Positions 1,869 to 33,934 of a DNA stretch of 64,000 nucleotides are shown piece after piece. Each line of letters starts with the position of its first letter. Within the stretch, counting starts at the first letter, position 1. Position numbers and translations under genes: made by a program. This DNA comes from Methanobrevibacter sp. GTDB lineage: Archaea > Methanobacteriota > Methanobacteria > Methanobacteriales > Methanobacteriaceae. Under the pieces are notes generated by a model that saw only the letters and a list, made by a program, of their open reading frames with translations, was not told the origin of the DNA and did not search any database. Location: the NCBI GenBank assembly GCA_017434525.1, contig JAFRFD010000007.1, forward strand, positions 1 to 64,000. The letters run 5' to 3'.

Positions 1869-1943
1869 TTAAAAATGGGGCATAATTCTATATATGGGGG
1901 ATTACAAAAAGTTACTCATAAAAATATTGCAGAGGAGATTAAC

Positions 1944-2777: not shown

Positions 2778-2844
2778 TATTTAAGTTATATCTTTAGGAT
2801 AAAAACATGAAATTAAATTAAATAAATATTCAGTGGATGTTAAT

Positions 2845-3666
2845 ATGGACATAACAGAAATAATTAAAAGAGCAATTGTATTTCCATCAAAAAACTTAGA
2901 AATATTGTCAATTTATGCCATTTTGTCAGTATTGGGTGGAGCATTTGCTGTTCAGGGTGTAATAACGTTTTTATTTGGAATTATTGACCTTACAAATTTT
3001 GTAATTGGAGCAATATATATTGCAATTGCAATAATAATCGGAATTATTACTCGAAGTATATCCGTTCAGTGTGTCAAATCAGGAATTGAATTGCAGGATA
3101 AGATACCCGATTTCAAATGGTGGGGAAATTGGGGTGCCGGTTTAAAGAAAATCGTTATCATGATATTCTACTTTATCGTTCCGGCATTGATTGTCGTATT
3201 TATAGGTTTGGTCACAAATGTTTACGGCAACCTTATAAATATCGGTCAGGCACTAACTTTACAGATTTCTCCGGTTCTTATGGGAAATGTGGGCGTTACA
3301 GATGCAATAAATAATGCGGCATTTCCATTATTTGTTTCATTGGCGTTTACCCTTGTTGCTGGTTTGCTTATATTTTTAGTATTTACATTCTTCCAGGTTA
3401 TGGCTGAAGCAAGATTGGCACACACTGGCAGTTTATTAAAAGCTTTAAATTTCATTTCAGCCGCAAAAGACCTTAAAATGATTGGTTTAGGTAAGGTAAT
3501 CCTATTGTCCATATTAGTTTTAGTGATTGTTTCAGTAATTGAGATGGTCTTAACATTTATCTTTGATCATTTAGTGGTCTTGTCAATTCTTAATATCGTG
3601 ATAACACCTTACATCGCATTATTCGGTCAAAGCGCTCTTGGATTTTTATATTCAGATATAGTTTAA
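2845..3666 (+). CDS. DUF4013-type integral membrane protein (paralogue 2)
   Basis: 273 residues, clearly paralogous to the preceding gene: same N-terminus (MDITEIIKRAIVFPSKN), same polar loop (QVMAEARLAHTGSLLKAL), same C-terminal LGFLYSDIV. About six membrane segments. The ATG at 2845 is chosen by alignment with the paralogue; GTG and ATG codons a few residues upstream are less likely. The tandem arrangement points to a local duplication that has diverged strongly. The role is unknown. Confidence 0.78.
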   Translation: MDITEIIKRAIVFPSKNLEILSIYAILSVLGGAFAVQGVITFLFGIIDLTNFVIGAIYIAIAIIIGIITRSISVQCVKSGIELQDKIPDFKWWGNWGAGLKKIVIMIFYFIVPALIVVFIGLVTNVYGNLINIGQALTLQISPVLMGNVGVTDAINNAAFPLFVSLAFTLVAGLLIFLVFTFFQVMAEARLAHTGSLLKALNFISAAKDLKMIGLGKVILLSILVLVIVSVIEMVLTFIFDHLVVLSILNIVITPYIALFGQSALGFLYSDIV

Positions 3667-3710
3667 ACTACATCGCTTTTTAATTAATAACAACATATTC
3701 AGTGAAAATA

Positions 3711-5093
3711 ATGAACTTGAAATTAGACAATAAAATGCAGCTGCTGGTTTTGTTTACTTTGACCACCAGTCTGGTAACCATAGCCCAAGGCATAATCACA
3801 ACAGGTGTAGTTTACCTTATGAGTGACTTTTCCGTATCTTCAACACAGGCACAGTGGTCATATTCCGCATTTCTGCTTGTTGTTGGAGTCATGATTCCAT
3901 TAAGCGCTTTTATTTCACGCAGATTCAATGCAAGAACAATATTTTTCTTTTCATTGGTCATGTTTCTTTTTGGATCGGTTATATGTTACTTTTCAACATC
4001 AATGACTATGCTTATCATAGGTAGGGTTACTCAGGCTATTGGAAACGGTGTCCTGATGCCTTATGTTCAGATTCTTCTTTTGCGAATCATACCTGAGGAG
4101 AAATGGCAGACATATATGGGATTGTATGGTCTTATTATTGCAATAGCTCCTGTTGTCGGATCATTTCTCGGAGGATTTGTAATAACCCTATATGGCTGGA
4201 GGTCATTGTTTTCGTTTTTCACAATATCTGCACTGATTCTGATGGCTTTAGGTTTGATTCTTGTTAAGGACAATACGCCAACTCAGGATTATCCTCTGGA
4301 CTATCTCTCCGTAGTGTTGTCAGTCATTGGATGTGGAGGAGTGATGCTTGGTTTTACAAACGTTGCAGATTACGGTTTTACTCATTATTTTGTTATTGTT
4401 CCTATAATTATTGGAATTATTGCTTTGACATTGTTTGTAAGGCGTCAGCCAAAATTGGACAAGCCTTTTATTAATGTCTCCATTCTTAAAAACAAGTACT
4501 TTTCAGTGGGTACAATATTTATATGCATTCTCTTTTTCGCTTTAAACGGATGCACTGCACTTGTTCCAATTTTCATTCAGGGCATAGCCAACAATTCAGC
4601 AATCATTTCCGCTTCCGTGCTGTTTCCAGGCGGTCTTTTGATTATTGCATTTAATTTCATAGGGCCTCTGCTTACAAACAGAATAGGAATCAAAAAGGTT
4701 CTGATTATGGGTTGTGTAATTTCAATAATTGGATTTGCAACCATGATGTTCTATACTCAGGATTCCTCATTCGAATTCATGATGATAACCCAATCAATCC
4801 GTTATATCGGTGCAGGACTTGCCCTGATGCCCGCTACAACATGGGCACTGACAATGGTATCCGACAAGGTAGAGGACGGAACAGCTGTCAACAATACTCT
4901 AAGACAGATTTTTGCAGCCATCGGATCATCAATGGTTGTTGTTATGGTGGCAGTTCTGGCAGGAGGCACTATAGGTCATGATTCTGCTTCCGTTGTTGCA
5001 TTTAACCAGGTTTCATTAATTCTGCTTGTTTTGCATGTCATCATGCTTGTTTTGGCTATTGTCTACATTGATGATAAGGAAAAATTGAAGTGA
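3711..5093 (+). CDS. MFS multidrug-type exporter (DHA2-like)
   Basis: 460 residues with at least 12 hydrophobic segments. The loop after the second helix (SAFISRRFNARTIF) is a weak form of MFS motif A, and LIIAIAPVVGSFLGGF in helix 5 is the antiporter motif C typical of drug:H+ antiporters (EmrB/QacA group). It would extrude toxic compounds using the ion gradient. A GTG at 3702 could extend it by three residues; no clear ribosome binding site decides. It lies tail to tail with a pair of TetR-type genes, and a second MFS gene accompanies the paralogous TetR pair at 32-35 kb, which suggests a regulated efflux module. The substrate is unknown. Confidence 0.82.
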   Translation: MNLKLDNKMQLLVLFTLTTSLVTIAQGIITTGVVYLMSDFSVSSTQAQWSYSAFLLVVGVMIPLSAFISRRFNARTIFFFSLVMFLFGSVICYFSTSMTMLIIGRVTQAIGNGVLMPYVQILLLRIIPEEKWQTYMGLYGLIIAIAPVVGSFLGGFVITLYGWRSLFSFFTISALILMALGLILVKDNTPTQDYPLDYLSVVLSVIGCGGVMLGFTNVADYGFTHYFVIVPIIIGIIALTLFVRRQPKLDKPFINVSILKNKYFSVGTIFICILFFALNGCTALVPIFIQGIANNSAIISASVLFPGGLLIIAFNFIGPLLTNRIGIKKVLIMGCVISIIGFATMMFYTQDSSFEFMMITQSIRYIGAGLALMPATTWALTMVSDKVEDGTAVNNTLRQIFAAIGSSMVVVMVAVLAGGTIGHDSASVVAFNQVSLILLVLHVIMLVLAIVYIDDKEKLK

Positions 5094-5217: not shown

Positions 5218-5820
5218 TTACTGGCATTCGATGGCCTGCCAGGTCATCTCAAAGTTTTTCTCGAAAAGGAGATCAATATCCTCGTTTGGGAAATCTAACC
5301 AAAAGCATTGAACTCCCATATACATGATGTACAATGTTTCGGCAATGTTTTTGGTTGAGAAGTCTTTCCGGATTTCATTTTTCCTTTTGCCGTCTTCGAC
5401 AAGGCCGTTTAAAAATATTCCAGTATCATTTCCCATTTGTGAAATTGTCCTGCTGACCTCGTCATCGGCATATCCTGTTGCGGTTAAAAGAAATAATACA
5501 GTGCCATAATTGATTTTTTTGTTGATGCTTTCAATTTCCACACCGTTTATGAAGTGATGTAAAATGTAAAGCAATGCGTCATGGATTCTCTCCTTTGATG
5601 AGCCTTCAAGTGGGATTTTATCAAAATCGATTTTAATATAATCTACCATATACTTTTGCATAATTGCTTCAAATATGTCGCTTTTATCTGAAAAATGATA
5701 ATATATTCCGCCGGTTGTCAGTCCTGTGCAATTTTGAATATCTCTAATTGAAATATCGACTGTACCTTTTTCCAATATTAATTTTAGCGTTTTTTCAACA
5801 ATCAAGTCTTTAGTGTTCAT
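5218..5820 (-). CDS. TetR/AcrR-type regulator, second gene of tandem pair (module 1)
   Basis: 200 residues. Residues 1-50 form the TetR helix-turn-helix (ISIRDIQNCTGLTTGGIYYH followed by FSDKSDIF); the rest is an all-helical ligand/dimer domain. It lies 30 nt downstream of the sister TetR gene, so the two are probably co-transcribed. It aligns without gaps to the protein at 34670-35272, with about 80% identity counted by eye. TetR proteins usually repress their own operon and an efflux gene; the operator candidates lie upstream of the first gene of the pair (6502-6553). The MFS gene at 3711-5093 ends 124 nt away in convergent orientation. Confidence 0.88.
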   Translation of the reverse strand: MNTKDLIVEKTLKLILEKGTVDISIRDIQNCTGLTTGGIYYHFSDKSDIFEAIMQKYMVDYIKIDFDKIPLEGSSKERIHDALLYILHHFINGVEIESINKKINYGTVLFLLTATGYADDEVSRTISQMGNDTGIFLNGLVEDGKRKNEIRKDFSTKNIAETLYIMYMGVQCFWLDFPNEDIDLLFEKNFEMTWQAIECQ

Positions 5821-5850: not shown

Positions 5851-6459
5851 TTATTCTCTGAATCTTATCTTTTCCCATTGCAAATCAAAATTATCTTCAA
5901 AGACAAAAATCATATCATCAATTATATATGATTCCCATTTATATGCAATTCCCATGTACATGATAATTAATGAATCTACAATGTCTTTGGTTGAGTAGTC
6001 TTGTCGGATTTGTCTGTTTTTTTGACCTTCCTCAACAATTTCTGTGAAAAATTCCTTCAATTCGTTTAGGAGGCTTTGGCATAATTCCTGAAAATTTTCA
6101 TGAACAAATCCTTTTGCAGTCAAAATCGCCAATATGATTCTGTAGTCTATTTCCTCATCAATCGATTCAATCTTGATTCCGCTTTGTTTTTCCTTAAAAA
6201 TTTCAACCATGACATCGTGGATTTTCTCTTTTGAATTTCCATTTATCTGCCTGAGTTCATCTATATTGAATTTGTAAAAGTTTAGATAGTATCTTTCAGT
6301 AATCTCATTATATATCTCTTCTTTATTAGAAAAATGGTGATATATTCCGCCAGTAGCGATTCCTGATGCGGCGCTGATTTCTCTAATTGAAATGATGGAG
6401 TTCTGCTTTTCAATCATTAATTTTAAAGTCTTTTCTAAAATTAATTGTCTTGTATTCAT
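5851..6459 (-). CDS. TetR/AcrR-type regulator, first gene of tandem pair (module 1)
   Basis: 202 residues with N-terminal helix-turn-helix (ISIREISAASGIATGGIYHH) and a helical C-terminal domain ending EKIRFRE. It has the same length and is clearly homologous to the protein at 34031-34639; each is followed 30 nt later by the second TetR of the pair. The palindrome GAACGTTC lies 48 nt upstream of its ATG, at the same distance as in the paralogous locus, and a TATA box (about 6529-6535) sits between two operator copies. Autorepression is therefore likely. Having two different TetR proteins in one operon raises the possibility of heterodimers. Confidence 0.88.
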   Translation of the reverse strand: MNTRQLILEKTLKLMIEKQNSIISIREISAASGIATGGIYHHFSNKEEIYNEITERYYLNFYKFNIDELRQINGNSKEKIHDVMVEIFKEKQSGIKIESIDEEIDYRIILAILTAKGFVHENFQELCQSLLNELKEFFTEIVEEGQKNRQIRQDYSTKDIVDSLIIMYMGIAYKWESYIIDDMIFVFEDNFDLQWEKIRFRE

Positions 6460-6501: not shown

Positions 6502-6553
6502 AGAACGAACGTTCTGTCATATTGGAAATTTATATGACGAACGAAGGTTCTGT
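6502..6553 (-). promoter_or_regulatory. Promoter with two TetR operator candidates (module 1)
   Basis: On the plus strand AGAACGAACGTTCTGTCAT (6502-6520) and ATGACGAACGAAGGTTCTGT (6534-6553) are inverted copies of one motif. The first contains the palindrome GAACGTTC (6507-6514). Read on the minus strand, the TATA box TATAAAT (about 6535-6529) lies between them and the first copy falls about 25 nt downstream of it, at the expected transcription start of the TetR pair. A repressor bound there would block initiation. The block from 6491 to 6514 is almost identical to the reverse complement of 33977-34000 in the second module. Confidence 0.65.
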
Positions 6554-6795
6554 ATATTGGAAAACAGTAACTCACTTCACTGTTTTTGTTCATCAAGCAA
6601 CGATAGCTTTATTAATCAATAAAAAAATAAATATTAATGAAAAAAAATATTTGACATCTGCAATCAACATTATTTGCGGATATATGTAAATTGAATGTTT
6701 TTGAAAAGTTCAGTAAAACAAACTTAAGGTTGAATTTAAAAAAGAGAAGATTTGCGAAAAGCAAATGAAAAATAATATTGTGGGAGGTATAAAAT

Positions 6796-15220: not shown

Positions 15221-15254
15221 CTATATGAGTATTATCGAACAGAACGAACGTTCG
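15221..15254 (+). promoter_or_regulatory. Promoter and TetR-type operator of the giant adhesin gene
   Basis: A TATA-like element (CTATATGAG, 15221-15229) is followed 24 nt later by the palindrome CGAACGTTCG (15245-15254) in the context AGAACGAACGTTCGGTTTAG. The same palindrome occupies the same position relative to the TATA box in both TetR-pair promoters in this window. The operator falls at the predicted transcription start, leaving a leader of about 45-50 nt before the ATG at 15296, with GAGGTAA (15281-15287) as ribosome binding site. Confidence 0.6.
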
Positions 15255-15295
15255 GTTTAGTTACTTGATTTTTAGACAATATGAGGTAATTAAAA

Positions 15296-18200
15296 ATGTC
15301 GAAAAAAACGATAGGGATATTGCTGATAATTCTTGTAATGATTATAAGTATCAGTGCAGTTTCAGCGGCTGATGCTAATGAAACGTTGCAAGGACAAGTC
15401 AGCGATACAAATATTGCTTTGGCAGACGAAGTTGATGATACAAATGTCGCAGCAACTTCTTCTGATTTGAAACAAGAAGTCAATGACACTTCACCTGCGA
15501 TTGAAAGTGTCAATGACGCTGATGAAATTAATGTAGATGACAGTCGAAATGAAAATCATAAAGTGAGTGCATCCTCTGATTCAAATGATGTGCTTTCCGC
15601 TTCAGATGATGATTTGCTTAAATCCAAAGGAAATAATTTTTTGTATAACGGTAAATGGTATGATGATCTAGATGATGCTTTTGATGATGCTGATGATGAT
15701 CCCGGAAATAAACTTATACAGGTTTGGGGAGGTACATATAAATACACTGATGATTCGGATGATTTTAGTATTACAATTAATGATGAAGTATCTATAACAC
15801 TCCAGCCCTACCCTGGCCATACGGTTATTTTTGACGCCGAGGATAAAGATTGGTTCTTTAAGATAACTAATAAAGATGTACGTCTCACAATCAATGACAT
15901 TACCTTTAAAAATGGGAATGCATATGATGGTGGTGCTATAGAAGTTGAAGATAGTGCACAATTGACCTTGAACAGATGTATATTTGAAAGTAATAACGCT
16001 TATTGCAATCTTGCTGGTGATTATGGATTAGGTGGAGCCATAGTTGTGGATGAAGGTTCACTTATTGCCAATAACTGTCGGTTTACAAACAATTGGGCAG
16101 GTAAATCCGGTGGTGCCATCTGTGTTGAAGATGCGGGTTCAGCTACACTTAATAACTGTTATTTCGAAGGAAATACAAAGAAATATAAAAGTGAAATGGA
16201 AGCAAACGATTTTGATAGTTATGATGAGGATTCAGAGGGCGCCATATCTTGGAGTTTTGACAATTGTCAGTTTAAAGGAGATAGTACAGGTTCCGTTACA
16301 TGGCAATTACATCCATTGACTAAATCAGTGGATATATCTGTTGACGTTAGCGACGATGTAAGTCATGCTGTTTTATATAAAGATGGTGTGGAATGTTATA
16401 GGACACCTTGTGGTAAAGATGATGATGTATCTTTCTCTTATTTGGAGAGGGGGACCTATACAATATACTTGATTAAAGGTTCATCTTTGACTACAGAAAA
16501 AAGATATGAGTATTCAGGAACTACCTTTACAATTCTAGAACCTTATTTTGTTTTAAATGACGAACAGGTATTTGAAACTTTAAGTGCTGCAGTAAATGCC
16601 ATTCCTAATGGTGGAACTGGTGAAATTGCTGTTGAAAATGGATTGACTTTCACTGATTCTGCTAATTTTAACGTGGATATTACAAATAAGGTAGTAACAA
16701 TTATGCCTAAAGATATTTCTGATGATGCTGATGAAGTCATCTTTTCAGGCAGTTCTCAAAAGTATCTGTTGTATGCAGGTTCTAATTCCAAACTCACTAT
16801 AACTGGTATAACTATAACTGGCGGTTTTTCAGATTCCGCATTAAAATTCATTACTAATCAGGAATGTACTATTTCAGATTGTGAATTTAAAAATATGCAA
16901 CATCTTGTAGTCCCGATTTTTGCGCAAAATTCAAATCTGGTACTTAGTGGCAATACTTTCGAATCAACTAGTAGGATAGTCTTAGGAAATACTGTTGTAA
17001 ATATAGATGATTGTACTTTCACTTCCAATGTTGGTATTAATGGAGGAGCTATCTATGCTAATCCCGAATCAGATGTAACAATTACCAACTCAGAATTTAC
17101 TGCTAATGAGGGCACAGGTAGTGGTGGAGCCATATATGCCAACAAACTTAATATTCATAATACTGCATTTATAGGAAATTCAGCCAATTTGGGAGGTGCT
17201 GTTTATATAGCTGGAGGCTCTAGCGATCTTGTAAATATAACCAACTGTGTTTTTGATTCAAATAGTGCAACTAATTACAGAAACATATACTCCGAATCAC
17301 TCACAAGGAAGATTAATTTCGAGTTCAATGAATATGATTTGAAATTGAATATAACCTTAAAAGATAGTTCCTATGGTTCTGAATATATTCTTGATGGTAA
17401 TTTTGACTGGGGATCCAATTTAAATAATTCTTATACTCTTTTAACTGGATTTGTAGATGAGGAAAATATCTTTGGAGATATGCTTACAGTTGTAGATAAC
17501 AAATTTAACATAAATCTTGGAGTGCTGCCTGGTGGAACACATGAAATAGTCATGCCTGGTATGTATACTCAGGGTGACAGTAATGACCATTTCTGGCAAC
17601 ATGACTACTATAATGATTTATACGGAAACGAATTCTATTTAAGTGGTCCGGCATATGCAAAAATTGGAATTGAAAAGGGTAAAATATCATTAACTCTTGA
17701 AGTAAATGATGTATTAATACCTGAAACACCTGTTTTAAATGTTTATGCCAATTGGGATTTGAATTATACTGTTTTCATTCAAAATAAATATTACCAACTT
17801 GAAGTTGTAAACGGTAAAGGCAGCATGCAACTGACAGGCCTTGATTTAGGTAATTATACAGTTGTTGCTATGCGCAATGCTGATGAAAACTTTGAGCTTG
17901 CAATGAATTACACTACATTTTCAATTGCTAAAACCTACAGCAACTTCCTTGTTTTAAGTACAAACGTGGAATACGATACATTAAATGAAGCTGTAGCCAA
18001 TTCCAATGATGAAGATACAATATATGTTAAAAACGGCACATATAAAGACACTGGAATAGTGATATCCAATAAGGTTCTGGACATCATTGCATTGGAAGGT
18101 GCAGTCTTTGATGCTCAAGGCGGTGACGCCAATTTCATAATAGTAAATGAAAATGCTGTAGTTGATATATCCGGCATAACATTCAGAGGACTTCACAACA

Positions 18201-21200
18201 GAAATACCAATTATGGTGCTATAGTCAATCACGGATATCTCGCGCTGACTTTATGTAATTTCACAGACAATAAGATTACAAAGACTTCATTTGCTGAAAA
18301 TGGTGGAGCAGCCATATTCAGTGACGGACATTCATTGGAGATTGACAGTTGTAATTTCATAAATAATGCCGCTCCTTTAAAAGTAAGTACTGCTGCGGTC
18401 TCATCATTGGGTTATGAGGATGTTTCAATTATGGACTCTAAATTCATAAATAACTCTGCACGTGATGGTGGAGCATTGTACTTCAAAAACATAACACAAT
18501 TTGAAGCAGTGATCACTTCATGTGACTTTGAGCGTAATACTGCTGTTAAAGGGTCTGCAATATATGTAGGCAACAATTCCAAATATATTGCTGTCACTCT
18601 ATCTGATTTCAAGAAAAACGACATCAAAAATAGTTTGGGAGAAAAAACTCAACTTGAAGGTGGAGTAATTTATGTCAATGCCAATAGTGAGGTAGTCTTG
18701 GATATCAGCTTATCCAATTTTGAAGACAACGCAAACAGCAATGTTGATGGTGGAGTCATATGTCTTGATGGATCTTCAAAAGCCAGCATTGACAGTTGTA
18801 TCTTCAATAACAATAGCGGTAAGGCGGGTTCTGCAATTTTAATCAAAAACCCTAATGATAAAAAGTTAACCTTATTTATCGACAGCAGTGCATTTACAAA
18901 TAACCATGCAGTAACTGGAGCCATTGCAACATCTCCTAAAGTTACAGCATTCATTGATGAGTGTGTTTTTGCAAATAACACTGGAGAAAACAGAAATATT
19001 TACAGCAATGGATTTACCGTAGTCCATGATTCTGTTTTAGATGTCAGGGATGCTAAATTAAATGTGCCATCTGTTCAGTATGGTGAAAACTCAATAATCA
19101 ATGGTTCAGCAGATTTCGGTACTAATATATATGCTACAGCCAATTTAACAGTTGCTGGTGAAAATGTTATTGTAGATATTAAAAACAATGAATTCACCTA
19201 TGATGCAGGTATGTTGAATCATGGAAAATATTCTACTGTTTTAAACAGTATTGCAGATAACAATAACAATACTTATATTATGGACAGCATAACTGAAATT
19301 TTCAGAGTTAACCGTGAGAGTATTGAAATAAATGTTTCAGTTGACAACATTACATATGGTGAAACCCTGAAAGTCGTTGAAAGTCTACCTTCAACTGCTA
19401 CAGGTACAATTGATTACCAACTGAACGGAAAGTATTATACAAAAGATGAAATCGAGTCATTGAAATTGGATGCTGGAAAATACACTCTTGTAGCCATCTA
19501 TGATCATGATGATTTCGCATTCACATCAACTACTGTTGATTTCGAAGTCTATAAAGCTAATCCGACAATATCTGTACCTAATGTGGATGTAAAATATAAT
19601 GACAGCATTGTTTTAAACATTGAATCAGATGTTCCATCAATTTATACAATTGAAATTGAAGATTACAGAAATGTCGTATTTGTCAATGGCAGCAGATCTA
19701 TCGTAATTGATAAAACATTGAATCCTGGCAATTACACAATCAAAGTCACTTCACAGGAACGTGTAAACTACATATCAAATTCCACTGAGGCCAATTTGAA
19801 TGTCAATGAAAATCTTCCAGTATTTGGCTTAAGAATCTCAAACGCTAATATGGATGATATTGGAACTGGCAATGCTGGAGAAACCGACTCCGTAGTTGAT
19901 ACTTCCAATAATGTTCAGGCAAAACCTTTACTTGCCATTAGGTATTTTGCAGTTGCTGATAATGAACAGCTCAGTAATTCTCTAGACGACAACAACCTTG
20001 GTGAGGAATATGGGGAAGGCAAATTCCTTTACCAATACGATGAGGACGATGATTACAGCTATTTCGATACTTTAGAAGATGCGGTTGATGAAGCTATCTT
20101 ATATGGTGCAGGTATCATTACAGTTAGAGGTGGAACATATTCCGTATCCAGTATGGATATTGAAGGAGAAGTGGAATTAACAATCAGAGCTTATGGGGAT
20201 GAAGAGGTTATCTTTGACTGTGGAGGAGAAGATTACTTCATGCTTTTAACATATGAAACTGAAGTGGAGGTAATGGAGGCACCTCCTTTCTTCTATACTT
20301 ATCAAACAGAAGGCCCTACCGTTACACTTGAAAACATTACAGTAATCAATGGAGTTGCTACTTATGGTGGAGCTATTGACCTGGAAGCAGGTACTTTGAC
20401 CTTGAACAACTGTAATTTCTACAGTAACACTGCTACGGAAGGTGGAGCCATATATATTGGCCAATCTGATGCAGAAAATGATGCAATGCTTATTGCACTA
20501 AACACTACCTTTATAAACAATTATGCAGAAAGTGAAGGTGGAGCAATCTATATTGCAGACGACAATTTGGACGGTCAAACAACATCAGCTTCATTCTACT
20601 TATGTACCTTTTTAGATAACTACCAGGGTGAAGATGATGAGAAAGTGAGGAATTACTTTGCTGGCGGTAATGTTGAGGAAATAACTTGTCAATATTGTAT
20701 CTTTAACGCTAATGGGGAAATATACAATTTCACTATGGATAAAATCAATCAGACTGTCTATGTAAAAGGTACATCTAATGATACCTTTGATTCAGTGGTC
20801 TTATTGTACTTCGATACAGCACCTTTATACACTATTAACAACAACGGTTCACGTGATTTCAGCATCACTTTTGAGGATGTTATGGGCGGAAACTATACAG
20901 TAGGTGTAATGAACGACCATGACTTCAATACATATATCTTTGATGTCAAATTTGAAATGAAAGTTCCAAATTTCATCATATCCGAAGATGAAGTATTTGA
21001 AAACTTAACCGATGCTATTGAGGCCGTTAGTGATCATGGTGTTATCTATGCAAATGTAAACTATTATTATGAAGACAATATGGAAATTGATATCAACAAA
21101 TCATTCACCCTTAAGAATTTCAGAGATGACGGAGTTATTTTCGACGGAAACAGTACACAATGGTTCTTTACAATAGCTGAAGGATGCACTGTTGCATTTG

Positions 21201-24200
21201 AAGGCATATACTTCACTGACGGTGCTGTAAAAACTCATGCAGCAATTGAAAATTACGGTACTTTAGTAATCAATAATTGTACATTCGACAGTTTTGAAAC
21301 AAGTGCCATTATATACAATTCAGGTTTGTTAAACATATTGAACTCTACATTTTCACTTAACTTTGTTAATAATGCTGTTGTTTGGAATGAAAAGGATTTA
21401 GTCATCGATACAGTTGAATTTTCAAGCAATATTGTCAATGTAAATTCCGTAGTATACACCAATGGTGTTGCAGAAATTATCTCCGCTAATTTCACAGAAA
21501 ACTATAATTTTGGAAATGGTGGTGCAATCTATAACGCCAAGTCATTAATTGTTAACGGAACTGTTTTCACAGAAAATGAGGCCTACAATGGTGGATCTGT
21601 TTATAATGAAGGAACCTTAACAGTATTAAACTCCACTTTTGAAGACAACACTGCAAACGGATATGGTGGAGCAGTTTACAATGGAAATGAAGCAAGCATA
21701 TTCAATTCAACATTCACAGGATCCTCCAGTGAATTTGACGGTGGTGCCATTTATAACAATAATGTAATGGCTATCGATAATTCCACATTCGTTGGAAATA
21801 CCGCAACCGGCAGAGGTGGAGCAATTTACAACAACAAATCTCTGGAACTTGCAAAATCATTCTTCGGAATTAACTTTGCTGGAGAGTTTGCTAACATTTA
21901 CAATGCAGGTGATATTCAATTCGGCGAAAACATATTTGATTTCTATGATGTGATATTGGTCATACCTGATGGTGAATACGGCATTCCAACAACAATTACA
22001 GGTACACTTGACCCTCAATTCAACATGGACCTTCAACTTGTATTGCCTGGTTTTGTCAATCATAAAAATGCCTTAGTCACTATTTCAGAAGGAGTATTTG
22101 AATATACTACAGATATCCTGCCAAAAGGAATTTATGATGTTATATTAGATGAAATCATTTATGACACCTACGGCAACATCTATTATGGTGAAGCAATATT
22201 TGACAGGCTTATCATAAATAAGGCAAATGTCTACATCAATCTGACTGTAGATGATATTGTCCTTAGAAATACTGATCAAGCTGCACCGGTTTTAAAAATC
22301 AGTACAAGTAAAGATGGATTAATGCGTATTCTTTTCAACAATAAGTTTTCCGAAGTCAATGTCACAGGCGGTCAGGCCACAGTAACATTGGATGCTGTCA
22401 GAGAAGGAAACTACAGTGTATTTGTTGTCCGTGAAGGTGATGAAAACTATAATGATGCTATAAACTCAACCACATTCAAAGTCACTGAATATGTGGGCAA
22501 TTTCATTGTCAACAGTACTGGCGGTAAATTTGATACATTACGTGAAGCTATTGAAAATTCTGCAAATGATGACATCATTTATGTAATGGAAGGAAACTAT
22601 TCCGGTGCCGACAATCTCGGACTGATAATTTCAAATAAGAAATTATCTATAATTGCAGTTGGAGATGTTGTTTTCGATGCAAATTCAACCAATTTAATGT
22701 TTTTGACTGTTGAGGCAACTGCCGATGTTACTATATGTGATGTTGTAGTTTCTGGCTTTAATGTTAAAAATAAGGTGTCAATCCTTGAGAATAGAGGTGA
22801 TTTGACTCTTGATGGATGTATCTTTATCAATAACACTTATGCGGATGACTGTATGACAATTGTTTACAATTCTGGAAATTTAAATATTACTGGATCCGCA
22901 TTTTATGACAATATTGCAGAACATTACATTATTCAGTGTGATTCCGGTCTTGTCATTAATGAATCAACATTTGAGAATAATACCGTTAACGAAGCTATTA
23001 TTTCAATCCATGATGCACAAGATTCATCAAAAATTATATCAACAGAATTCATTGGAAACACATTATCATGTGCTCTTATTGATGTTGTAGGTTGTAGTGA
23101 TGTTCTTATCAGTTCTGAATTTTACAATAACACTAAAAAAGGTGAAGATATTGTAGATATTGTTTATGCAAGGGATTCCAATTTACTTGTTGAAAATTCC
23201 ATATTTAGGGGCAATGCTGTGAATGCGTTAATACGTGGAATGAGTAATAATAATGTTATTTCAGAATCTCTCTTCACAGATAATACCGTTGCAAATGTTG
23301 TTTTCAGTTTTGACAATAATCTATCAGTTATTGATTCTATATTTACAGGCAACACACTTTCAGATGATGATGCATTATTCATTGCAGTAGATGTGCATGC
23401 AACTGTCAATGGCAGTGTCTTTTTAAACAATAAGGCAGACGAGTACAGAAACATTTATAGTGTTTCTACTGATGTGAATATTGTCAATACAACATTTGAT
23501 GCAATAAACGTTGATTTCACTGTTCGTGATATTGACTATGGTGAAAACGCAACAATTGAAGGTACTATTGACATCGGTACAAACATCAACTTTACCGTTA
23601 ATTTGGACATTAACTCCAAGATTTATTCAGTCAATGTATCTGACAATAAGTTCACATTAAATGCAGGTATTCTTAACGGTGGAGACTATACTGTGGTATT
23701 AAATCCAAAAGATACTAATTCAAACACTTTTGTATTTGATAAAATAACCAAAGTATTCACTGTAAGCCGTATAGATCCTGGTTTAAGCGTATCAATAGAT
23801 GATATTACTCAAGGTGAAAAATTAAATGTTACTTCAACTATTGCTAAGAATGCTAAGGGTAATGTTGTCTATGAATTGAACGGTAATGTGTACAGTAAGG
23901 CTCAACTTGAAAATCTCACATTAAACCCAGGTAATTATTTAATTACAGCTGTCTACAGAGGAGATAAAAACTACATTCCTGCTAGTGAAATGGTTAATGT
24001 GAAGGTTAACAAAGTCGCTCCAAACATAACCGTAAATGATGTTGCAGTTAGCTATGGTGATGAGATTAAAATCAATGTAACTGTTGGTGCTGCTGATTAT
24101 TACACAGTATTTTTAGACAACAGATACAATGAATCAGTTTCATTATATGTTGACAATAGCGCAATATTCACCTTCCCAAGTGAAACCTTCAAAGCTGGCA

Positions 24201-27200
24201 GTTATAAAATCACTGTTTATGTATTTGAAAGTGACAATTATGCTGAAGAATATGCATATGCTACTTTAACAGTTAATAAGGCTGCTGGATTCTTCAATTT
24301 ATCAAACGATTTGATTATTGAAGGTGAAAATGCAACCATTAATGTATCAGTTCCACTCAATGCATACGGAAACATGACATACAGAGTATATGATAGGAAT
24401 TTAAATGTGGTTTATAATATCACTCAATCCTGTCTGGAAGACCTTATTGTTCCTAATTTGGATGGCGGAAGATATATTGTCTCAGGTACTTATGGAGGCG
24501 ATTCCTATTACCTTATTAGTTCTAGAGTCAATTCCGGTACAATATTTGTCAGGGAATATGTGGATGTTAACATTGCTGTAGATAATATAACCTATGGTGA
24601 AAATGCCACTGTCACTGTTGAAAGTGATGTTGATGGTGACTATCTTGTTTATGTAGGAACTGAACCTATAGTAGTTACTGTTATTAACGGTACCGGAAAT
24701 GTGTCTGTTCCTAATTTAAGTGCTGGAAGTTATGCTGTTAATGTTACTGCTGTTGATGGCAATTATTTCGCATTTAATGAAACAGAATTTGGCGTAGCTC
24801 CTAAATCTGCTTCCGTAACAGTTTCTATTGAAGATATTGTATTCGGTGAAAATGCTATAGCTGTGGTCAATGGTGAAATTGATGGCGAATACATTATAGA
24901 GATTGATAATCAGAATTACACTGCAAATGTTGTTGGCGGTAAAGGTAATGCTACACTTGATGGTCTTGCTGTTGGTGAAAATATTTTAGCTTCCATAACA
25001 ATTGCCAACGCTAACTATACTGCATCCAATACTACAACATTTAATGTATTCAGCAAATATAACACTCCAATCTCCTTGGATATGGAGATTGTGGAAAACA
25101 ATATTACAATGACCGTTACTGTTAATGATAAGGCAACCGGCCTTGTCAAATTCCAGGTAACTGGCCAAGAAGAATATGTGGTATACTCTGATGTCATCAA
25201 CGGTGTAGCTATTCTTGAAGATGTTCTTGAGTCTGGTGATTACACAGTTGTTGCAACATATCTGGGTAATGACAGGTTCAACACTAACATTACTTATGCG
25301 GATTTCACTATCAAAGGCCACATTAAGAAAAACACTACTATTAGTGCTCACGCTGATGTGATTGGAAACAGGGTTACATTAACTGTTAACGTTGATGAAA
25401 ACGCTACAGGATTTGTAAAACTGACAGTTGGTGGTACTGTTGCTAATATCGAAGTGGTTGATGGTGTCGCAACACTAACAACAATATTGCCTGCAAACAG
25501 TTACTATGTTGATGTGACTTATCTTGGTGATGACAACTTCAATATGAACAATACAATGGCGACATTTACTATAGTGGAAGCTGCCAAGGAAAATACCACT
25601 ATCGATCTTAACATTATTGCTTATGAAGATGCTGCTCTGATTGTGGTTGATTTGAATGAAACTACAACCGGATTGGTTAAATTCTATATGGTATCTAAAG
25701 AAACCGGTGAAAACTATACCATGTACATGGATGTTGAAAAAGGTCATGTTGAAACTTACACTAACAGCATTGAACCTGGAAACTACACTGTAGTTGCAAC
25801 ATACATGGGCGATTCAGTATTCAACACCAACACTACATCAGGGGATGTTGAAATCCTCGGACATATGATGAAAGATACTCCAATCACAGCAAATGTTGAA
25901 ACCAGTGCAAATAGAGTTATATTAACTGTCAACGTTGATGAAAACGCAACCGGATTTGTAAAGGTAACTGTTGGCGGCACTGTAGCTAACATTGAATTGG
26001 AGAAAGGTAAAGGAATATTAACAACTGTATTGCCTTACGGAAGTTACAGCTTAAATATCACTTATTTAGGTGATGCGAACTACAATAAGAACTCAACAAA
26101 ATCTGAATTTACACTTGTTGAGCCTAAAAAAGAAAACACACCTATCGCTTTGGATATCGTGACTGATGAGTACTATGTTGGAATAACTGCTACTGTTAGT
26201 GATAAGGCAACTGGTCTTGTCAAATTCCAAGTATCTGGTGCAGAAGAATATGTGGTATACTCTGATGTTATTAATGGTGTAGCTATTCTTGAAGACACTC
26301 TTATAATTGGTGATTACTCAGTAGTTGCAACCTATATGGGAGACAGCAGGTTTAACACCAACATTACTTATGGTGATTTCACTATCCAAGGCCACATTAA
26401 GAAGGACACTCCTATTAGTGCTAGTGCTGATGTGCTTGGAAACAGGGTCACTTTAACTGTTAAAGTTGATGATAACGCTACCGGATTTGTAAAACTGACC
26501 ATTGGCGGTACTGCTACTAATATTGAAGTGGTTGATGGTGTTGCAAAACTGACAACTACATTATCTCCAAACAGTTACTTTGTTGATGTTACTTACCTTG
26601 GTGATGATGACTTCAATATGAACAGTACTAAAGTGGCATTTACCATAACAGAGGCTTCCAAGAAAAATACTAATATCAATCTTGACATTATAACTGGTGA
26701 AGACAATGCTCTGATTATGGTTGATTTGAATAAAGCCACAACTGGATTGGTTAAACTCTATATGCTTTGGAAGGAAACCGGTGAAGAGTATACTATGTAT
26801 ATGGATGTTATTGATGGTCATGTGGAAACCTTTACTAACAGCATTGAACCTGGAAACTACACTATAGTTGCAACATACATGGGCGATTCAGCATTCAACA
26901 CCAACACTACATCTCAGGATGTTGAAATCTTTGGACATGTGCTGAAAGATACTCCAATCACAGCAAGTGTTGTTTCAAGTGGAACCAGAGTTGCATTGAC
27001 TGTTAAAGTTGATGATGAAGCTACTGGATTTGTTGAACTTAAATTTGGTGATAACGTATTTAACATTGCATTAGAAGATGGTATCGGAACACTTACAACT
27101 TCATTGCCTTACGGAAGCTACAGTTTGGATATTACTTATCTTGGTGATGAGAACTTCAATAAGAACTCCACTAAACTTGAATTCACTCTTGTAGAGCCTG

Positions 27201-30200
27201 CTAAGGAAAGCACTCCAATTTCCATGGATATTGTGACTTATGAAGATGAGGTGTGGATGACTGTCACTGTTGATGATGCTGCAACCGGTCTTGTCAAATT
27301 CCAAGTAACTGGTCCAGAAGATTTCACACTCTATGTGGATGTAGTCAACGGTAAAGCGCTTGTTGATGAGGTTCTTTTACTCGGTGATTACAATGTAATT
27401 GCAACCTATATGGGAGACAGCAGGTTTAATACCAACATTACTTATGGTGATTTCACTATCAAAGGCCACATTAAGAAGGACACTCCAATCACAGCAAATG
27501 CTAATGTAAATGGAAACAGGGTTACATTAACTGTTAAAGTTGATGATGACGCTACCGGATTTGTAAAACTGGCCATCGGCGGCACTGTTACTAATATTGA
27601 AGTGGTTGATGGTGTAGCAACATTAACAACCGTACTTGTTCCAAACAGTTACTATGTTGATGTAACTTACCTTGGTGATAATGACTTCAATATGAACAAG
27701 ACTAAAGTGACATTTACCATAACAGAAGCTTCCAAGGAAAATACCACTATTGATCTTAACATTATAGCTGGTGAAGATGATGCTCTGATTGTGGTTGATT
27801 TGGATAAGGCTGCAACCGGATTGGTTAAATTCTATATGGTATATGAAGAAACCGGTGAGAATTACACTATGTACATGGATGTTGTAGATGGTCATGTGGA
27901 AACTTATACTAACAGCCTTGAACCTGGAAACTACACTGTAGTTGCAACATATCTGGGTGATTCAGCATTCAACACCAACACTACATCAGGCAGTGTTGAA
28001 ATCCTCGGTCATATGCTGAAAGATACTCCAATCACAGCAAATGTCGAAACCAGTGCAAATATGGTCAAATTAACTGTTAAAGTTGATGAAAACGCTACTG
28101 GATTTGTTGAACTTAAATTTAGAGATAATGTATTTAACATTGCATTAGAAGACGGTATTGGAACATTAACAACTTCATTGCCTTACGGAAGCTACAGTTT
28201 GGATATCACTTATTTAGGTGATGCAAATTACAACAAGAACTCCACCAAATGTGATTTCACACTTGTAGAGCCTGCTAAGGAAAACACTACTATCTCTTTG
28301 GATATTGTGACTGATGAAAATTATGTAGGAATGACAGTTAGTGTTAATGATGCTGCAACCGGCCTTGTCAAATTCCAAGTATTTGGCAGCGAAGGTGAAT
28401 ACACACTCTATGCAGACGTAATTGATGGTAAAGCTATTCTTGAAGACACACTTCCAATTGGTGATTACTCAGTAATTGCAACATATATGGGAGACAGCAG
28501 GTTTAATACTAATATTACTTCTGATGAGTTCACTATCGTGGGCCATATTAAGAAGGATACTCCTATTAGCGCTAGTGCCGATGTACTTGGAAACAGGGTT
28601 ACATTAACCGTTAAAGTTGATGATGACGCTACCGGATTTGTAAAACTAATCGTTGGCGGTACTGTTGCTAATATTGAAGTGGTCGATGGTGTAGCAACAC
28701 TAACAACTATGTTGTCTCCAAACAGTTACTATGTTGACGTAACTTACCTTGGTGATGATGACTTCAATATGAACAAGACTAAAGTGACATTTACCATAAC
28801 TGAAGTTTCCAAGATGAATACTAATATTGACCTTGACATTGCAGTTTATGAAGACACTGCATTTATTGCGGTTGATTTGGATAAGGCTGCAACTGGATTG
28901 GTTAAATTCTATATGGTATCTAAAGAAACCGGTGAAGAGTATACTATGTACATGGATGTTATTGAGGGTCATGTTGAAACATTTACCAACAGCATTGAAC
29001 CTGGAAACTACACTGTGGTTGCAACATACATGGGCGATTCATTATTCAACACCAACACTACATCCAAGGATGTTGAAGTCATTGGACATATAATGAAAGA
29101 TACTCCAATCTCTTTGGATATCGTGACTAGTCAAAACAATGTTACAATGACAGTTACAGTTAATGATACTGCAACCGGCCTTGTTAAATTCGAAGTAACC
29201 GGCACAGAAGAATTTGTGATGTACGTTGACGTTGTTGACGGTAAGGCAGTTCTTGAAGAAGTTCTTGCAGCTGGTGATTACTCAGTAGTTGCAACATACA
29301 TGGGAGATTCACTATTCAATTCAAATATGACCTCAAAAGACTTCGCTGTTAAGGAGAAAGTGCAATCCAATATTACTATTGTTGTGCCTGATCCTATCAA
29401 GGCGGGTGAAAACATTTCAGTAAGCATTCCTGGTGCTACTGGTAATGTGTCTGTAATTTTTGAGGGTGTTGAATGTATTATTCCTTTAGTGGATGGAAAA
29501 GCCAACTTTACTGTTCCTAGCATCACTTCTGGTGAGTATAGTGTTGTTGTAATGTATGCTGGTGACGATACTCACACACCAGACTATAAGGCAATTTCAC
29601 TAAAAGTTGAAAAATTAGGCAGTTGGTTTAATGTAACTGAAGGCACTACCTTTGTAACTTATGCCGCTGAGACTGCTGTCGGCGAACAAGGAGCTTTATA
29701 TGCATTTGTATTGAGAGATTCCAATGGAAACCCTATTGCAAACGCTACAGTTACATTTGCATACAAAACAGTGGTATTCAACTCAACCACAGACGAAAAC
29801 GGTACATTATACTTGGGTATCAGTACATATCTCTCACAAGATGCACTCTGTGCTTTGTCATATCTTGGAGATGAAACACACAATGCAACATTCGTAGCAT
29901 TCAACTTCAAAATCCAAAAGAAACCAACAGCAATTAAAGCAGCAGCAAAAACCTACAAGGTTACTAAAAAATACAAATATCTAACTGTTACTTTAAAAAC
30001 CACAAAAGCATCATCCAGAGACGGTAAAGTCTACCTCAAGAAAGGTAAGAAAATAACTTTAACCGTCAACGGTAAAACCTATAAAGGCTACACAAATGCT
30101 AACGGCAAAGTAACATTTACAATAACCAACCTCAACAAGAAAGGTAAATACACTGCTGTCATTAAATATGCTGGAAGTGAAACATACGAAAGTGCAAAAA

Positions 30201-30226
30201 CAAAAGTAAAATTAAAAGTTTATTAG
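15296..30226 (+). CDS. Giant secreted adhesin-like protein (beta-helix cassettes plus Ig-like modules), 4976 aa
   Basis: Predicted surface protein of the adhesin-like family abundant in gut Methanobrevibacter, thought to bind host or bacterial surfaces. Residues 1-24 are a signal peptide ending ISAVSA; residues about 25-110 are an acidic linker. Six right-handed beta-helix cassettes start near residues 116, 419, 887, 1582, 1892 and 2402, each opening with a cap like FDTLxxAV and containing Pmp-like coils with GGAIY. Ig-like (Big_3 type) domains separate some cassettes and fill the region from about 2740 onward. A tandem super-repeat covers about residues 3256-4690. The last 100 residues are a Lys-rich Ig domain ending KTKVKLKVY, the usual C-terminus of this family; no membrane anchor or sortase signal follows. 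The frame is unbroken over 14.9 kb. Confidence 0.92.
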   Translation: MSKKTIGILLIILVMIISISAVSAADANETLQGQVSDTNIALADEVDDTNVAATSSDLKQEVNDTSPAIESVNDADEINVDDSRNENHKVSASSDSNDVLSASDDDLLKSKGNNFLYNGKWYDDLDDAFDDADDDPGNKLIQVWGGTYKYTDDSDDFSITINDEVSITLQPYPGHTVIFDAEDKDWFFKITNKDVRLTINDITFKNGNAYDGGAIEVEDSAQLTLNRCIFESNNAYCNLAGDYGLGGAIVVDEGSLIANNCRFTNNWAGKSGGAICVEDAGSATLNNCYFEGNTKKYKSEMEANDFDSYDEDSEGAISWSFDNCQFKGDSTGSVTWQLHPLTKSVDISVDVSDDVSHAVLYKDGVECYRTPCGKDDDVSFSYLERGTYTIYLIKGSSLTTEKRYEYSGTTFTILEPYFVLNDEQVFETLSAAVNAIPNGGTGEIAVENGLTFTDSANFNVDITNKVVTIMPKDISDDADEVIFSGSSQKYLLYAGSNSKLTITGITITGGFSDSALKFITNQECTISDCEFKNMQHLVVPIFAQNSNLVLSGNTFESTSRIVLGNTVVNIDDCTFTSNVGINGGAIYANPESDVTITNSEFTANEGTGSGGAIYANKLNIHNTAFIGNSANLGGAVYIAGGSSDLVNITNCVFDSNSATNYRNIYSESLTRKINFEFNEYDLKLNITLKDSSYGSEYILDGNFDWGSNLNNSYTLLTGFVDEENIFGDMLTVVDNKFNINLGVLPGGTHEIVMPGMYTQGDSNDHFWQHDYYNDLYGNEFYLSGPAYAKIGIEKGKISLTLEVNDVLIPETPVLNVYANWDLNYTVFIQNKYYQLEVVNGKGSMQLTGLDLGNYTVVAMRNADENFELAMNYTTFSIAKTYSNFLVLSTNVEYDTLNEAVANSNDEDTIYVKNGTYKDTGIVISNKVLDIIALEGAVFDAQGGDANFIIVNENAVVDISGITFRGLHNRNTNYGAIVNHGYLALTLCNFTDNKITKTSFAENGGAAIFSDGHSLEIDSCNFINNAAPLKVSTAAVSSLGYEDVSIMDSKFINNSARDGGALYFKNITQFEAVITSCDFERNTAVKGSAIYVGNNSKYIAVTLSDFKKNDIKNSLGEKTQLEGGVIYVNANSEVVLDISLSNFEDNANSNVDGGVICLDGSSKASIDSCIFNNNSGKAGSAILIKNPNDKKLTLFIDSSAFTNNHAVTGAIATSPKVTAFIDECVFANNTGENRNIYSNGFTVVHDSVLDVRDAKLNVPSVQYGENSIINGSADFGTNIYATANLTVAGENVIVDIKNNEFTYDAGMLNHGKYSTVLNSIADNNNNTYIMDSITEIFRVNRESIEINVSVDNITYGETLKVVESLPSTATGTIDYQLNGKYYTKDEIESLKLDAGKYTLVAIYDHDDFAFTSTTVDFEVYKANPTISVPNVDVKYNDSIVLNIESDVPSIYTIEIEDYRNVVFVNGSRSIVIDKTLNPGNYTIKVTSQERVNYISNSTEANLNVNENLPVFGLRISNANMDDIGTGNAGETDSVVDTSNNVQAKPLLAIRYFAVADNEQLSNSLDDNNLGEEYGEGKFLYQYDEDDDYSYFDTLEDAVDEAILYGAGIITVRGGTYSVSSMDIEGEVELTIRAYGDEEVIFDCGGEDYFMLLTYETEVEVMEAPPFFYTYQTEGPTVTLENITVINGVATYGGAIDLEAGTLTLNNCNFYSNTATEGGAIYIGQSDAENDAMLIALNTTFINNYAESEGGAIYIADDNLDGQTTSASFYLCTFLDNYQGEDDEKVRNYFAGGNVEEITCQYCIFNANGEIYNFTMDKINQTVYVKGTSNDTFDSVVLLYFDTAPLYTINNNGSRDFSITFEDVMGGNYTVGVMNDHDFNTYIFDVKFEMKVPNFIISEDEVFENLTDAIEAVSDHGVIYANVNYYYEDNMEIDINKSFTLKNFRDDGVIFDGNSTQWFFTIAEGCTVAFEGIYFTDGAVKTHAAIENYGTLVINNCTFDSFETSAIIYNSGLLNILNSTFSLNFVNNAVVWNEKDLVIDTVEFSSNIVNVNSVVYTNGVAEIISANFTENYNFGNGGAIYNAKSLIVNGTVFTENEAYNGGSVYNEGTLTVLNSTFEDNTANGYGGAVYNGNEASIFNSTFTGSSSEFDGGAIYNNNVMAIDNSTFVGNTATGRGGAIYNNKSLELAKSFFGINFAGEFANIYNAGDIQFGENIFDFYDVILVIPDGEYGIPTTITGTLDPQFNMDLQLVLPGFVNHKNALVTISEGVFEYTTDILPKGIYDVILDEIIYDTYGNIYYGEAIFDRLIINKANVYINLTVDDIVLRNTDQAAPVLKISTSKDGLMRILFNNKFSEVNVTGGQATVTLDAVREGNYSVFVVREGDENYNDAINSTTFKVTEYVGNFIVNSTGGKFDTLREAIENSANDDIIYVMEGNYSGADNLGLIISNKKLSIIAVGDVVFDANSTNLMFLTVEATADVTICDVVVSGFNVKNKVSILENRGDLTLDGCIFINNTYADDCMTIVYNSGNLNITGSAFYDNIAEHYIIQCDSGLVINESTFENNTVNEAIISIHDAQDSSKIISTEFIGNTLSCALIDVVGCSDVLISSEFYNNTKKGEDIVDIVYARDSNLLVENSIFRGNAVNALIRGMSNNNVISESLFTDNTVANVVFSFDNNLSVIDSIFTGNTLSDDDALFIAVDVHATVNGSVFLNNKADEYRNIYSVSTDVNIVNTTFDAINVDFTVRDIDYGENATIEGTIDIGTNINFTVNLDINSKIYSVNVSDNKFTLNAGILNGGDYTVVLNPKDTNSNTFVFDKITKVFTVSRIDPGLSVSIDDITQGEKLNVTSTIAKNAKGNVVYELNGNVYSKAQLENLTLNPGNYLITAVYRGDKNYIPASEMVNVKVNKVAPNITVNDVAVSYGDEIKINVTVGAADYYTVFLDNRYNESVSLYVDNSAIFTFPSETFKAGSYKITVYVFESDNYAEEYAYATLTVNKAAGFFNLSNDLIIEGENATINVSVPLNAYGNMTYRVYDRNLNVVYNITQSCLEDLIVPNLDGGRYIVSGTYGGDSYYLISSRVNSGTIFVREYVDVNIAVDNITYGENATVTVESDVDGDYLVYVGTEPIVVTVINGTGNVSVPNLSAGSYAVNVTAVDGNYFAFNETEFGVAPKSASVTVSIEDIVFGENAIAVVNGEIDGEYIIEIDNQNYTANVVGGKGNATLDGLAVGENILASITIANANYTASNTTTFNVFSKYNTPISLDMEIVENNITMTVTVNDKATGLVKFQVTGQEEYVVYSDVINGVAILEDVLESGDYTVVATYLGNDRFNTNITYADFTIKGHIKKNTTISAHADVIGNRVTLTVNVDENATGFVKLTVGGTVANIEVVDGVATLTTILPANSYYVDVTYLGDDNFNMNNTMATFTIVEAAKENTTIDLNIIAYEDAALIVVDLNETTTGLVKFYMVSKETGENYTMYMDVEKGHVETYTNSIEPGNYTVVATYMGDSVFNTNTTSGDVEILGHMMKDTPITANVETSANRVILTVNVDENATGFVKVTVGGTVANIELEKGKGILTTVLPYGSYSLNITYLGDANYNKNSTKSEFTLVEPKKENTPIALDIVTDEYYVGITATVSDKATGLVKFQVSGAEEYVVYSDVINGVAILEDTLIIGDYSVVATYMGDSRFNTNITYGDFTIQGHIKKDTPISASADVLGNRVTLTVKVDDNATGFVKLTIGGTATNIEVVDGVAKLTTTLSPNSYFVDVTYLGDDDFNMNSTKVAFTITEASKKNTNINLDIITGEDNALIMVDLNKATTGLVKLYMLWKETGEEYTMYMDVIDGHVETFTNSIEPGNYTIVATYMGDSAFNTNTTSQDVEIFGHVLKDTPITASVVSSGTRVALTVKVDDEATGFVELKFGDNVFNIALEDGIGTLTTSLPYGSYSLDITYLGDENFNKNSTKLEFTLVEPAKESTPISMDIVTYEDEVWMTVTVDDAATGLVKFQVTGPEDFTLYVDVVNGKALVDEVLLLGDYNVIATYMGDSRFNTNITYGDFTIKGHIKKDTPITANANVNGNRVTLTVKVDDDATGFVKLAIGGTVTNIEVVDGVATLTTVLVPNSYYVDVTYLGDNDFNMNKTKVTFTITEASKENTTIDLNIIAGEDDALIVVDLDKAATGLVKFYMVYEETGENYTMYMDVVDGHVETYTNSLEPGNYTVVATYLGDSAFNTNTTSGSVEILGHMLKDTPITANVETSANMVKLTVKVDENATGFVELKFRDNVFNIALEDGIGTLTTSLPYGSYSLDITYLGDANYNKNSTKCDFTLVEPAKENTTISLDIVTDENYVGMTVSVNDAATGLVKFQVFGSEGEYTLYADVIDGKAILEDTLPIGDYSVIATYMGDSRFNTNITSDEFTIVGHIKKDTPISASADVLGNRVTLTVKVDDDATGFVKLIVGGTVANIEVVDGVATLTTMLSPNSYYVDVTYLGDDDFNMNKTKVTFTITEVSKMNTNIDLDIAVYEDTAFIAVDLDKAATGLVKFYMVSKETGEEYTMYMDVIEGHVETFTNSIEPGNYTVVATYMGDSLFNTNTTSKDVEVIGHIMKDTPISLDIVTSQNNVTMTVTVNDTATGLVKFEVTGTEEFVMYVDVVDGKAVLEEVLAAGDYSVVATYMGDSLFNSNMTSKDFAVKEKVQSNITIVVPDPIKAGENISVSIPGATGNVSVIFEGVECIIPLVDGKANFTVPSITSGEYSVVVMYAGDDTHTPDYKAISLKVEKLGSWFNVTEGTTFVTYAAETAVGEQGALYAFVLRDSNGNPIANATVTFAYKTVVFNSTTDENGTLYLGISTYLSQDALCALSYLGDETHNATFVAFNFKIQKKPTAIKAAAKTYKVTKKYKYLTVTLKTTKASSRDGKVYLKKGKKITLTVNGKTYKGYTNANGKVTFTITNLNKKGKYTAVIKYAGSETYESAKTKVKLKVY
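25061..29358 (+). repeat. Ordered super-repeat of Ig-like modules within the adhesin gene
   Basis: Sixteen modules of about 86-95 residues follow one another in the order D-A-B-C, D-A-B-C, D-A-B-C, D-A-B-D. Type D contains ATGLVKFQV and GDYSVVATYMGDSRFNTNIT; A contains ATGFVKL and NSYYVDVTYLGDDDFNMN; B contains YTMYMDV and EPGNYTVVATYMGDS; C contains LPYGSYSLDITYLGD. The junction marker GGCCA before KKD recurs at 25316, 26390, 27464 and 28541, giving periods of 1074, 1074 and 1077 bp. The fourth period lacks a C module. Confidence 0.9.
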
Positions 30227-32228: not shown

Positions 32229-32261
32229 AAAAAAATTGAAAATGAGAGTTAAACTCTCATT
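32229..32261 (-). terminator. Terminator after the second MFS exporter
   Basis: On the minus strand AATGAGAG (32261-32254) and CTCTCATT (32248-32241) form an 8-bp stem around the MFS stop codon, followed by a T-run (32236-32229). Confidence 0.6.
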
Positions 32262-33768: not shown

Positions 33769-33934
33769 CTATTTAATCCTCCATATCATTAAAAATTTTA
33801 AGAAAATACTAACAAAAAAATGTTGATTTAGTTGTTCAATATTTTTCTTGCAAATATTTATTTTTTTATTGTTTTATAAAGTTTTTGTTGCTTAATGAAT
33901 TAAAAATATGATGGGAATTACTATTTTCAAAAAT

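Follow-up and report, generated by a model that had tools for sequence, protein, structure and literature searches.

Why does the gene of a giant adhesin-like protein in Methanobrevibacter carry, at its predicted transcription start, the same palindrome as two operons that encode pairs of TetR-type proteins? The window, i.e. the whole stretch of 64,000 nucleotides that was analyzed (G000:C32:1-64000), contains the 16-bp site AGAACGAACGTTCKGT at 6502, 15241 and 33973, each time at a predicted transcription start. Sequence comparisons make it likely that AGAACGAACGTTCKGT is the operator of the tandem TetR-A/TetR-B pair, acting on the pair's own promoter and on the adhesin start by ligand-released repression. 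Binding by these TetRs, repression and the existence of a ligand are the parts of this regulation model that we infer. The features around the adhesin start are as follows.

15221 to 15228, + strand: presumed TATA-like box of the adhesin promoter (ctatatga), placed by eye; orthologous promoters are TATA-like at this place
15241 to 15256, + strand: putative TetR-type operator AGAACGAACGTTCGGT at the predicted adhesin start, 39 nt before the ATG; 29.6 bits
15296 to 30226, + strand: giant adhesin-like protein, 4976 aa, with signal peptide, beta-helix N-terminal part and 18 Big_3_5 Ig-like domains

The palindrome was found at all three positions for which the initial annotation had claimed it, as CGAACGTTCG at 15245-15254 and 33975-33984 and as GAACGTTC at 6507-6514. 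Two of the sites do belong to tandem TetR-pair operons and the third precedes the 4976-codon adhesin gene, and all three lie about 20-25 nt from a TATA-like box (distance to the operator centre, judged by eye). All three sites have 16 bp in common, namely AGAACGAACGTTC with KGT directly after it. The window contains a fourth GAACGTTC at 50367; this copy is part of a coding ORF and devoid of the flanks.

Chance can be rejected as the origin of these sites, since the expectations from shuffled sequence, base composition and Markov models are all far below what is observed. Dinucleotide shuffles of the window predict 0.01 copies of the 10-mer CGAACGTTCG; a base-composition model predicts 0.006 perfect matches to GAACGAACGTTCKGT per genome; and Markov sequence yields 0.06 hits above 12 bits per 64 kb. 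The genome was scanned by pattern, and the stretches around matches were then examined. The only exact copies of AGAACGAACGTTCKGT in the 3.13-Mb genome are the three in the window, and the same is true of the three perfect matches to GAACGAACGTTCKGT in the whole 3,130,754 bp (6503+, 15242+ and 33973-). Even the sole match with one mismatch is in the window, at 6539, adjoining the first TetR operator. Two sites elsewhere in the genome with two mismatches (C12:12658 and C156:25132) were discounted for want of a family link. A weight matrix built exclusively from other genomes gives the three main sites 29.6-30.7 bits; the next best sites in the window are at 6538 (16.7 bits) and 905 (16.1 bits). 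In 805 kb of related loci, only 2 of 127 sites above 12 bits are inside genes, a proportion that differs in meaning from a genome-wide rate, as the loci were picked for motif, TetR or adhesin. A motif common away from promoters would have counted against an operator; what we find are three genomic matches at starts and 2/127 intragenic sites. The original list of sites was correct, but incomplete, in that it lacked second operators at 6538 and 33936 and the weaker palindrome at 905.

The putative regulators and their own promoters comprise the following features.

5851 to 6459, - strand: TetR-A1, 202 aa; PF00440 (7e-10), predicted TetR fold
5218 to 5820, - strand: TetR-B1, 200 aa, tandem partner of TetR-A1 and 40% identical to it; PF00440
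6502 to 6517, - strand: proximal operator of pair 1; TetR-A1 starts 42 nt further on
6530 to 6537: TATA-like box of TetR pair 1, by eye
6538 to 6553, - strand: distal operator of pair 1, beyond the TATA box and 36 bp upstream of the proximal one
33936 to 33951, + strand: degenerate distal operator of TetR pair 2; 10.0 bits
33952 to 33959: TATA-like box of TetR pair 2, by eye
33973 to 33988, + strand: proximal operator of pair 2, 42 nt upstream of the TetR-A2 start; the motif reads as the consensus on the - strand
34031 to 34639, + strand: TetR-A2, 202 aa when counted from the conserved start; the ORF as listed begins at 33908
34670 to 35272, + strand: TetR-B2, 200 aa; PF00440

As TetR-A2 starts at 34031 and not at 33908, its operator lies upstream of the gene and not within it. 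The order is TetR-A then TetR-B in both operons, with about 40% identity between A and B, and all four proteins match PF00440 (the TetR_N helix-turn-helix) above the gathering score. The AlphaFold model of TetR-A (pLDDT 90) finds TetR structures as Foldseek matches at probability 1.00, among them the efflux repressors NalD, AcrR and SmeT as well as FadRs, and is predicted to possess the all-helical ligand-binding and dimerisation domain of the TetR/AcrR family. The recognition helices of TetR-A and TetR-B are nearly identical (GIATGGIYHYFSNK versus GLTTGGIYYHFSDK), so both proteins could read the same half-sites; homodimers, heterodimers and two dimers per site are all possible. Like members of this family, the pair has a palindromic operator in its own promoter. 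In 34 TetR-A upstream regions, the proximal operator is located about 42 nt before the ATG in nearly every operon, a position that would cover the predicted start site, as at the adhesin. Most of these regions contain a second operator, mostly 33-37 bp upstream, with a TATA-like stretch between the two.

These arrangements suggest how the switch might work. The TetR pair would occupy its own promoter, mostly via the two operators flanking the TATA box, and also the adhesin start site. As long as ligand is absent, initiation or promoter escape would be blocked by TetR dimers (AA, BB or AB) bound over the start site. Release would follow when a small molecule fills the TetR pocket; this molecule would probably be hydrophobic, a toxic compound or metabolite that the MFS pump handles as well. 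Expression of the adhesin, the efflux pump and further genes with surface or metabolic functions would then rise together.

Should the TetR pair read the motif, the two ought to be inherited together. The comparison set consisted of 67 genomes of the genus, the named relatives being rumen or gut Methanobrevibacter sp. MAGs. The TetR pair is found in 28 of them. The motif (with at most one mismatch) is present in 26 of the 28 genomes with TetR-A/B and in none of the 39 without (Fisher 1.4e-16), and the adhesin core (query: residues 801-1300), which has a close orthologue in 29 genomes, 26 of them with TetR, follows the same pattern (both 26, adhesin only 3, TetR only 2, neither 36; Fisher 4e-13), relatedness of the genomes being ignored in both tests. 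The three genomes with adhesin only (G022, G085, G090) are assemblies of 75-92% completeness in which the adhesin genes are cut at contig ends, making their promoters unreadable; the two with TetR only are 81-83% complete. A DNA-binding protein other than the TetR pair might read the motif, as each genome encodes further weak TetR relatives. The absence of the motif from all 39 genomes without the pair, and the fact that the TetR-A promoter itself has the densest and strongest sites, make this very improbable.

The operator is located upstream of the adhesin gene in 25/25 orthologues with a visible start, in genomes of different species. In 15 of the 25, it is found in the start-site arrangement, 36-43 nt before the ATG, in one register with the AGAACGAACGTTC-type sequence (11 cases) or in the mirror register (4 cases), such that the promoters align as GAACGAACGTTCTGTT versus GAACGTTCGTTCTGTT. 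The adhesin promoter of G069 has two operator copies. In the other 10, the operators reside in an intergenic region common to the adhesin and the TetR operon or what is left of it, at distances of 143 to about 560 nt from the ATG. The adhesin is divergent to the TetR pair in these relatives, except that in G072 the sites alone are seen, with the adhesin about 530-560 nt downstream of them. In three loci with the divergent layout (L098, L118 and L160), GAATGAATATTC is found about where other promoters have GAACGAACGTTC, and may be a decayed operator.

With the operator 143 to about 560 nt away from the start of the adhesin, as in the 10 divergent cases, one would not expect simple blocking. The TetRs could bind but activate, or act dually, at the adhesin, above all where operators are at least 143 nt upstream, and the upstream operators in these 10 genomes speak for this possibility. 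We nevertheless regard it as unlikely: in 15 genomes, among them the present one, the site covers the predicted start, which is where repressors classically act, and the autoregulated TetR promoter has the same geometry. The FadR(Sa) repressor of Sulfolobus acidocaldarius provides a precedent for unusual action from sites more than 130 bp from promoters, though still as a repressor (PMC6449355).

The two arrangements are intermingled in the adhesin-core tree, whose well-supported branches require at least 4 changes from one to the other; G066 and G064, for example, differ in arrangement while their adhesin cores are almost identical. As the operator is always present, the link has been kept although the promoter was replaced. 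The promoter and its neighbourhood appear to have been exchanged repeatedly, with the TetR sites never lost (25/25). An alignment of nine closely alike adhesin promoters proves little by itself, since the operator (mean column identity 0.97) is no better conserved than the best flanking blocks (0.98-0.99).

The neighbourhoods of the TetR genes are themselves fluid. A common divergent TATA region, ctttataaaacaataaa, is seen in TetR intergenic regions (6554-6660 and 33830-33930 in the window, and loci L098, L118 and L102), whichever gene lies beyond it (MFS, adhesin or CstA), as if the TetR pair and its bidirectional promoter formed a cassette with exchangeable partner genes. TetR-A fragments or pseudogenes occur beside intact operators in L114, L116, L119, L120 and L166 (G018, G032, G016, G023 and G072), mostly in front of an MFS gene, which suggests that a different copy of the pair exerts control there. 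Either mis-binning or recent transfer would account for L142 (JAGBBT010000071.1), a contig that is assigned to a Treponema MAG and encodes the initial 44 residues of TetR-A at 80% identity.

Such fluidity could also mean that the operator spread with promoter segments by recombination and that the adhesin was inherited in one block with the TetR genes, with no real regulation. TetR, MFS, decarboxylase, CstA, ABC and adhesin genes do travel and reshuffle in one neighbourhood, many TetR intergenic regions share their divergent promoter whatever gene comes next, and TetR remnants lie beside some operators. However, the start-site promoter of the adhesin differs from the TetR promoter outside the operator and is kilobases away from the TetR genes in several genomes. 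One operator distance is kept in two registers, with a doubled site in G069, and no exchange of arrangement has ever cost an adhesin its operator. Passive spread thus has a small chance of being the explanation. The claim that a common start-site operator ties the TetR pairs to the adhesin is supported by co-occurrence, by the fixed distance to the ATG and by the divergent layouts, and regulation by the TetR pair is the reading that we prefer.

The proposed control concerns one adhesin and not adhesins as a class. The initial annotation had expected enrichment at adhesin promoters in general, which did not materialize. The genome has at least 19 open frames with Big_3_5 over the cut-off, and the genome-wide motif search detected the operator at only one, the adhesin gene at 15296..30226, and at none of the at least 18 others. 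A general adhesin regulon is therefore rejected. Three more giant Big_3_5 frames (7253, 5405 and 3572 aa), all without operator, are found on contig G000:C63.

Which other genes might be subject to the pair? The window offers the following candidates.

32257 to 33768, - strand: MFS efflux transporter (MFS-2), 503 aa, DHA2-type, divergent from TetR pair 2; the operator lies 204 nt upstream of the gene
905 to 920, - strand: palindrome AGAACAGATGTTCTGT, resembling the operator but weaker (16.1 bits), situated upstream of the gene for acetolactate decarboxylase
about 1035 to 1835, + strand: acetolactate decarboxylase with a signal-peptide-like start; TIGR01252 above cut-off, PF03306

The models nearest MFS-2 are EmrB/QacA/LfrA. 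Its operator is located 165-208 nt upstream in 13/13 genomes with a visible gene start and adjoins a TetR pair or remnant in most of them, so that, as in AcrR/QacR-type systems, an operator lies between regulator and pump gene. The description of the two TetR operons as efflux modules is apt for pair 2, which is divergent from this EmrB/QacA-like gene, but not for pair 1, which is merely convergent with another MFS gene. The decarboxylase gene comes first in a run whose later genes, at 1875-5093, include two for DUF4013 proteins and one for an MFS protein. An operator is present 57-232 nt upstream in 8/9 acetolactate decarboxylase homologues, including the 905 site of the window (7/8 in relatives). 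To our knowledge, a secreted-looking acetolactate decarboxylase is unusual for a methanogen. ABC, DUF4013 and other genes carry the operator in some genomes; homologues of CstA, SBF, ATPase, MFS-1 and W30882 mostly have no operator of their own. As repressors, operator and adhesin are co-inherited across the genus, cell-surface adhesion is probably under the same signal as a drug-type efflux pump.

Gut and rumen methanogens have dozens of giant adhesin-like proteins, which are vaccine candidates with a presumed role in contact with partner microbes. M. ruminantium M1 alone encodes 105 of them (PMC2812497). Lauric acid increases the expression of many adhesin-like genes in M. ruminantium (PMC5816558). 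This response makes membrane-active compounds worth trying as ligands, but nothing here ties it to the TetR pair. Our literature search found no named regulator for any Methanobrevibacter adhesin-like protein, and a search on tandem TetR heterodimers gave nothing on point. In its most specific form, the model would have TetR-A and TetR-B act as a heterodimeric, ligand-released switch on an asymmetric operator (GAAC-GAAC-GTTC-KGT), coupling efflux as a chemical defence to the display of one specific giant adhesin among many in rumen Methanobrevibacter. We put this forward tentatively and with considerable doubt; if true, it would mark the first time that a regulator is assigned to an adhesin-like protein of an archaeon. 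One adhesin would be singled out by a sharp DNA switch that is common to an efflux pump and kept across 25 genomes, and the adhesin operator offers a concrete handle on the question of which chemical leads a methanogen to alter its surface.

Three known systems invite comparison. FadR(Sa) is a TetR-family repressor with four genomic sites that serve one cluster of about 30 kb; its operator is semi-palindromic, and one site closely follows the repressor's own transcription start, with others further off (PMC6449355). The protein can bind as a single dimer or as two, exerts its block once TBP/TFB have been recruited, and leaves the DNA in response to a small ligand (PMC6449355). The present system likewise involves an archaeal TetR with few sites, a local cluster and a site at its own start. 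In contrast, FadR(Sa) is a single regulator with lipase and beta-oxidation targets and an acyl-CoA ligand, whereas here a tandem pair is associated with an efflux pump and a giant adhesin-like protein. The sites seen here belong to the TetR pair, MFS, adhesin, acetolactate decarboxylase, DUF4013 and ABC genes instead of beta-oxidation or lipase genes. Identity in the fold match with TetR-A is only 14-16%, and the TetR-A fold, which resembles many TetRs including FadRs, is not diagnostic for an acyl-CoA ligand. A FadR(Sa)-like mechanism at this operator would be an analogy only.

Staphylococcus IcaR is a TetR repressor divergent from the ica adhesin operon (PMC11178275). It shares with the present pair the family, the divergent position relative to its target and the link to a cell-surface adhesion trait, but controls a polysaccharide-adhesin synthesis operon in a bacterium. 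The match of TetR-A to IcaR is weak and confined to the HTH (E 4e-4), and there are no icaADBC-like polysaccharide genes among the window neighbours scanned. Repressors of the AcrR/NalD/SmeT/QacR type are, as here, autoregulated TetRs with a divergent or nearby multidrug pump, and TetR-A has AcrR and NalD among its best matches in sequence and fold. They differ in being single regulators and not a tandem pair. TetR-A reaches 41.5 bits with the AcrR equivalog model of NCBIfam, whose curated cut-off is 271, and all equivalog matches are far below their cut-offs. We know of no repressor of this type with a giant surface protein as its main target. Read from the DNA, the present system is a small local TetR regulon, of a kind already known, that has been extended to a giant surface protein in an archaeon.
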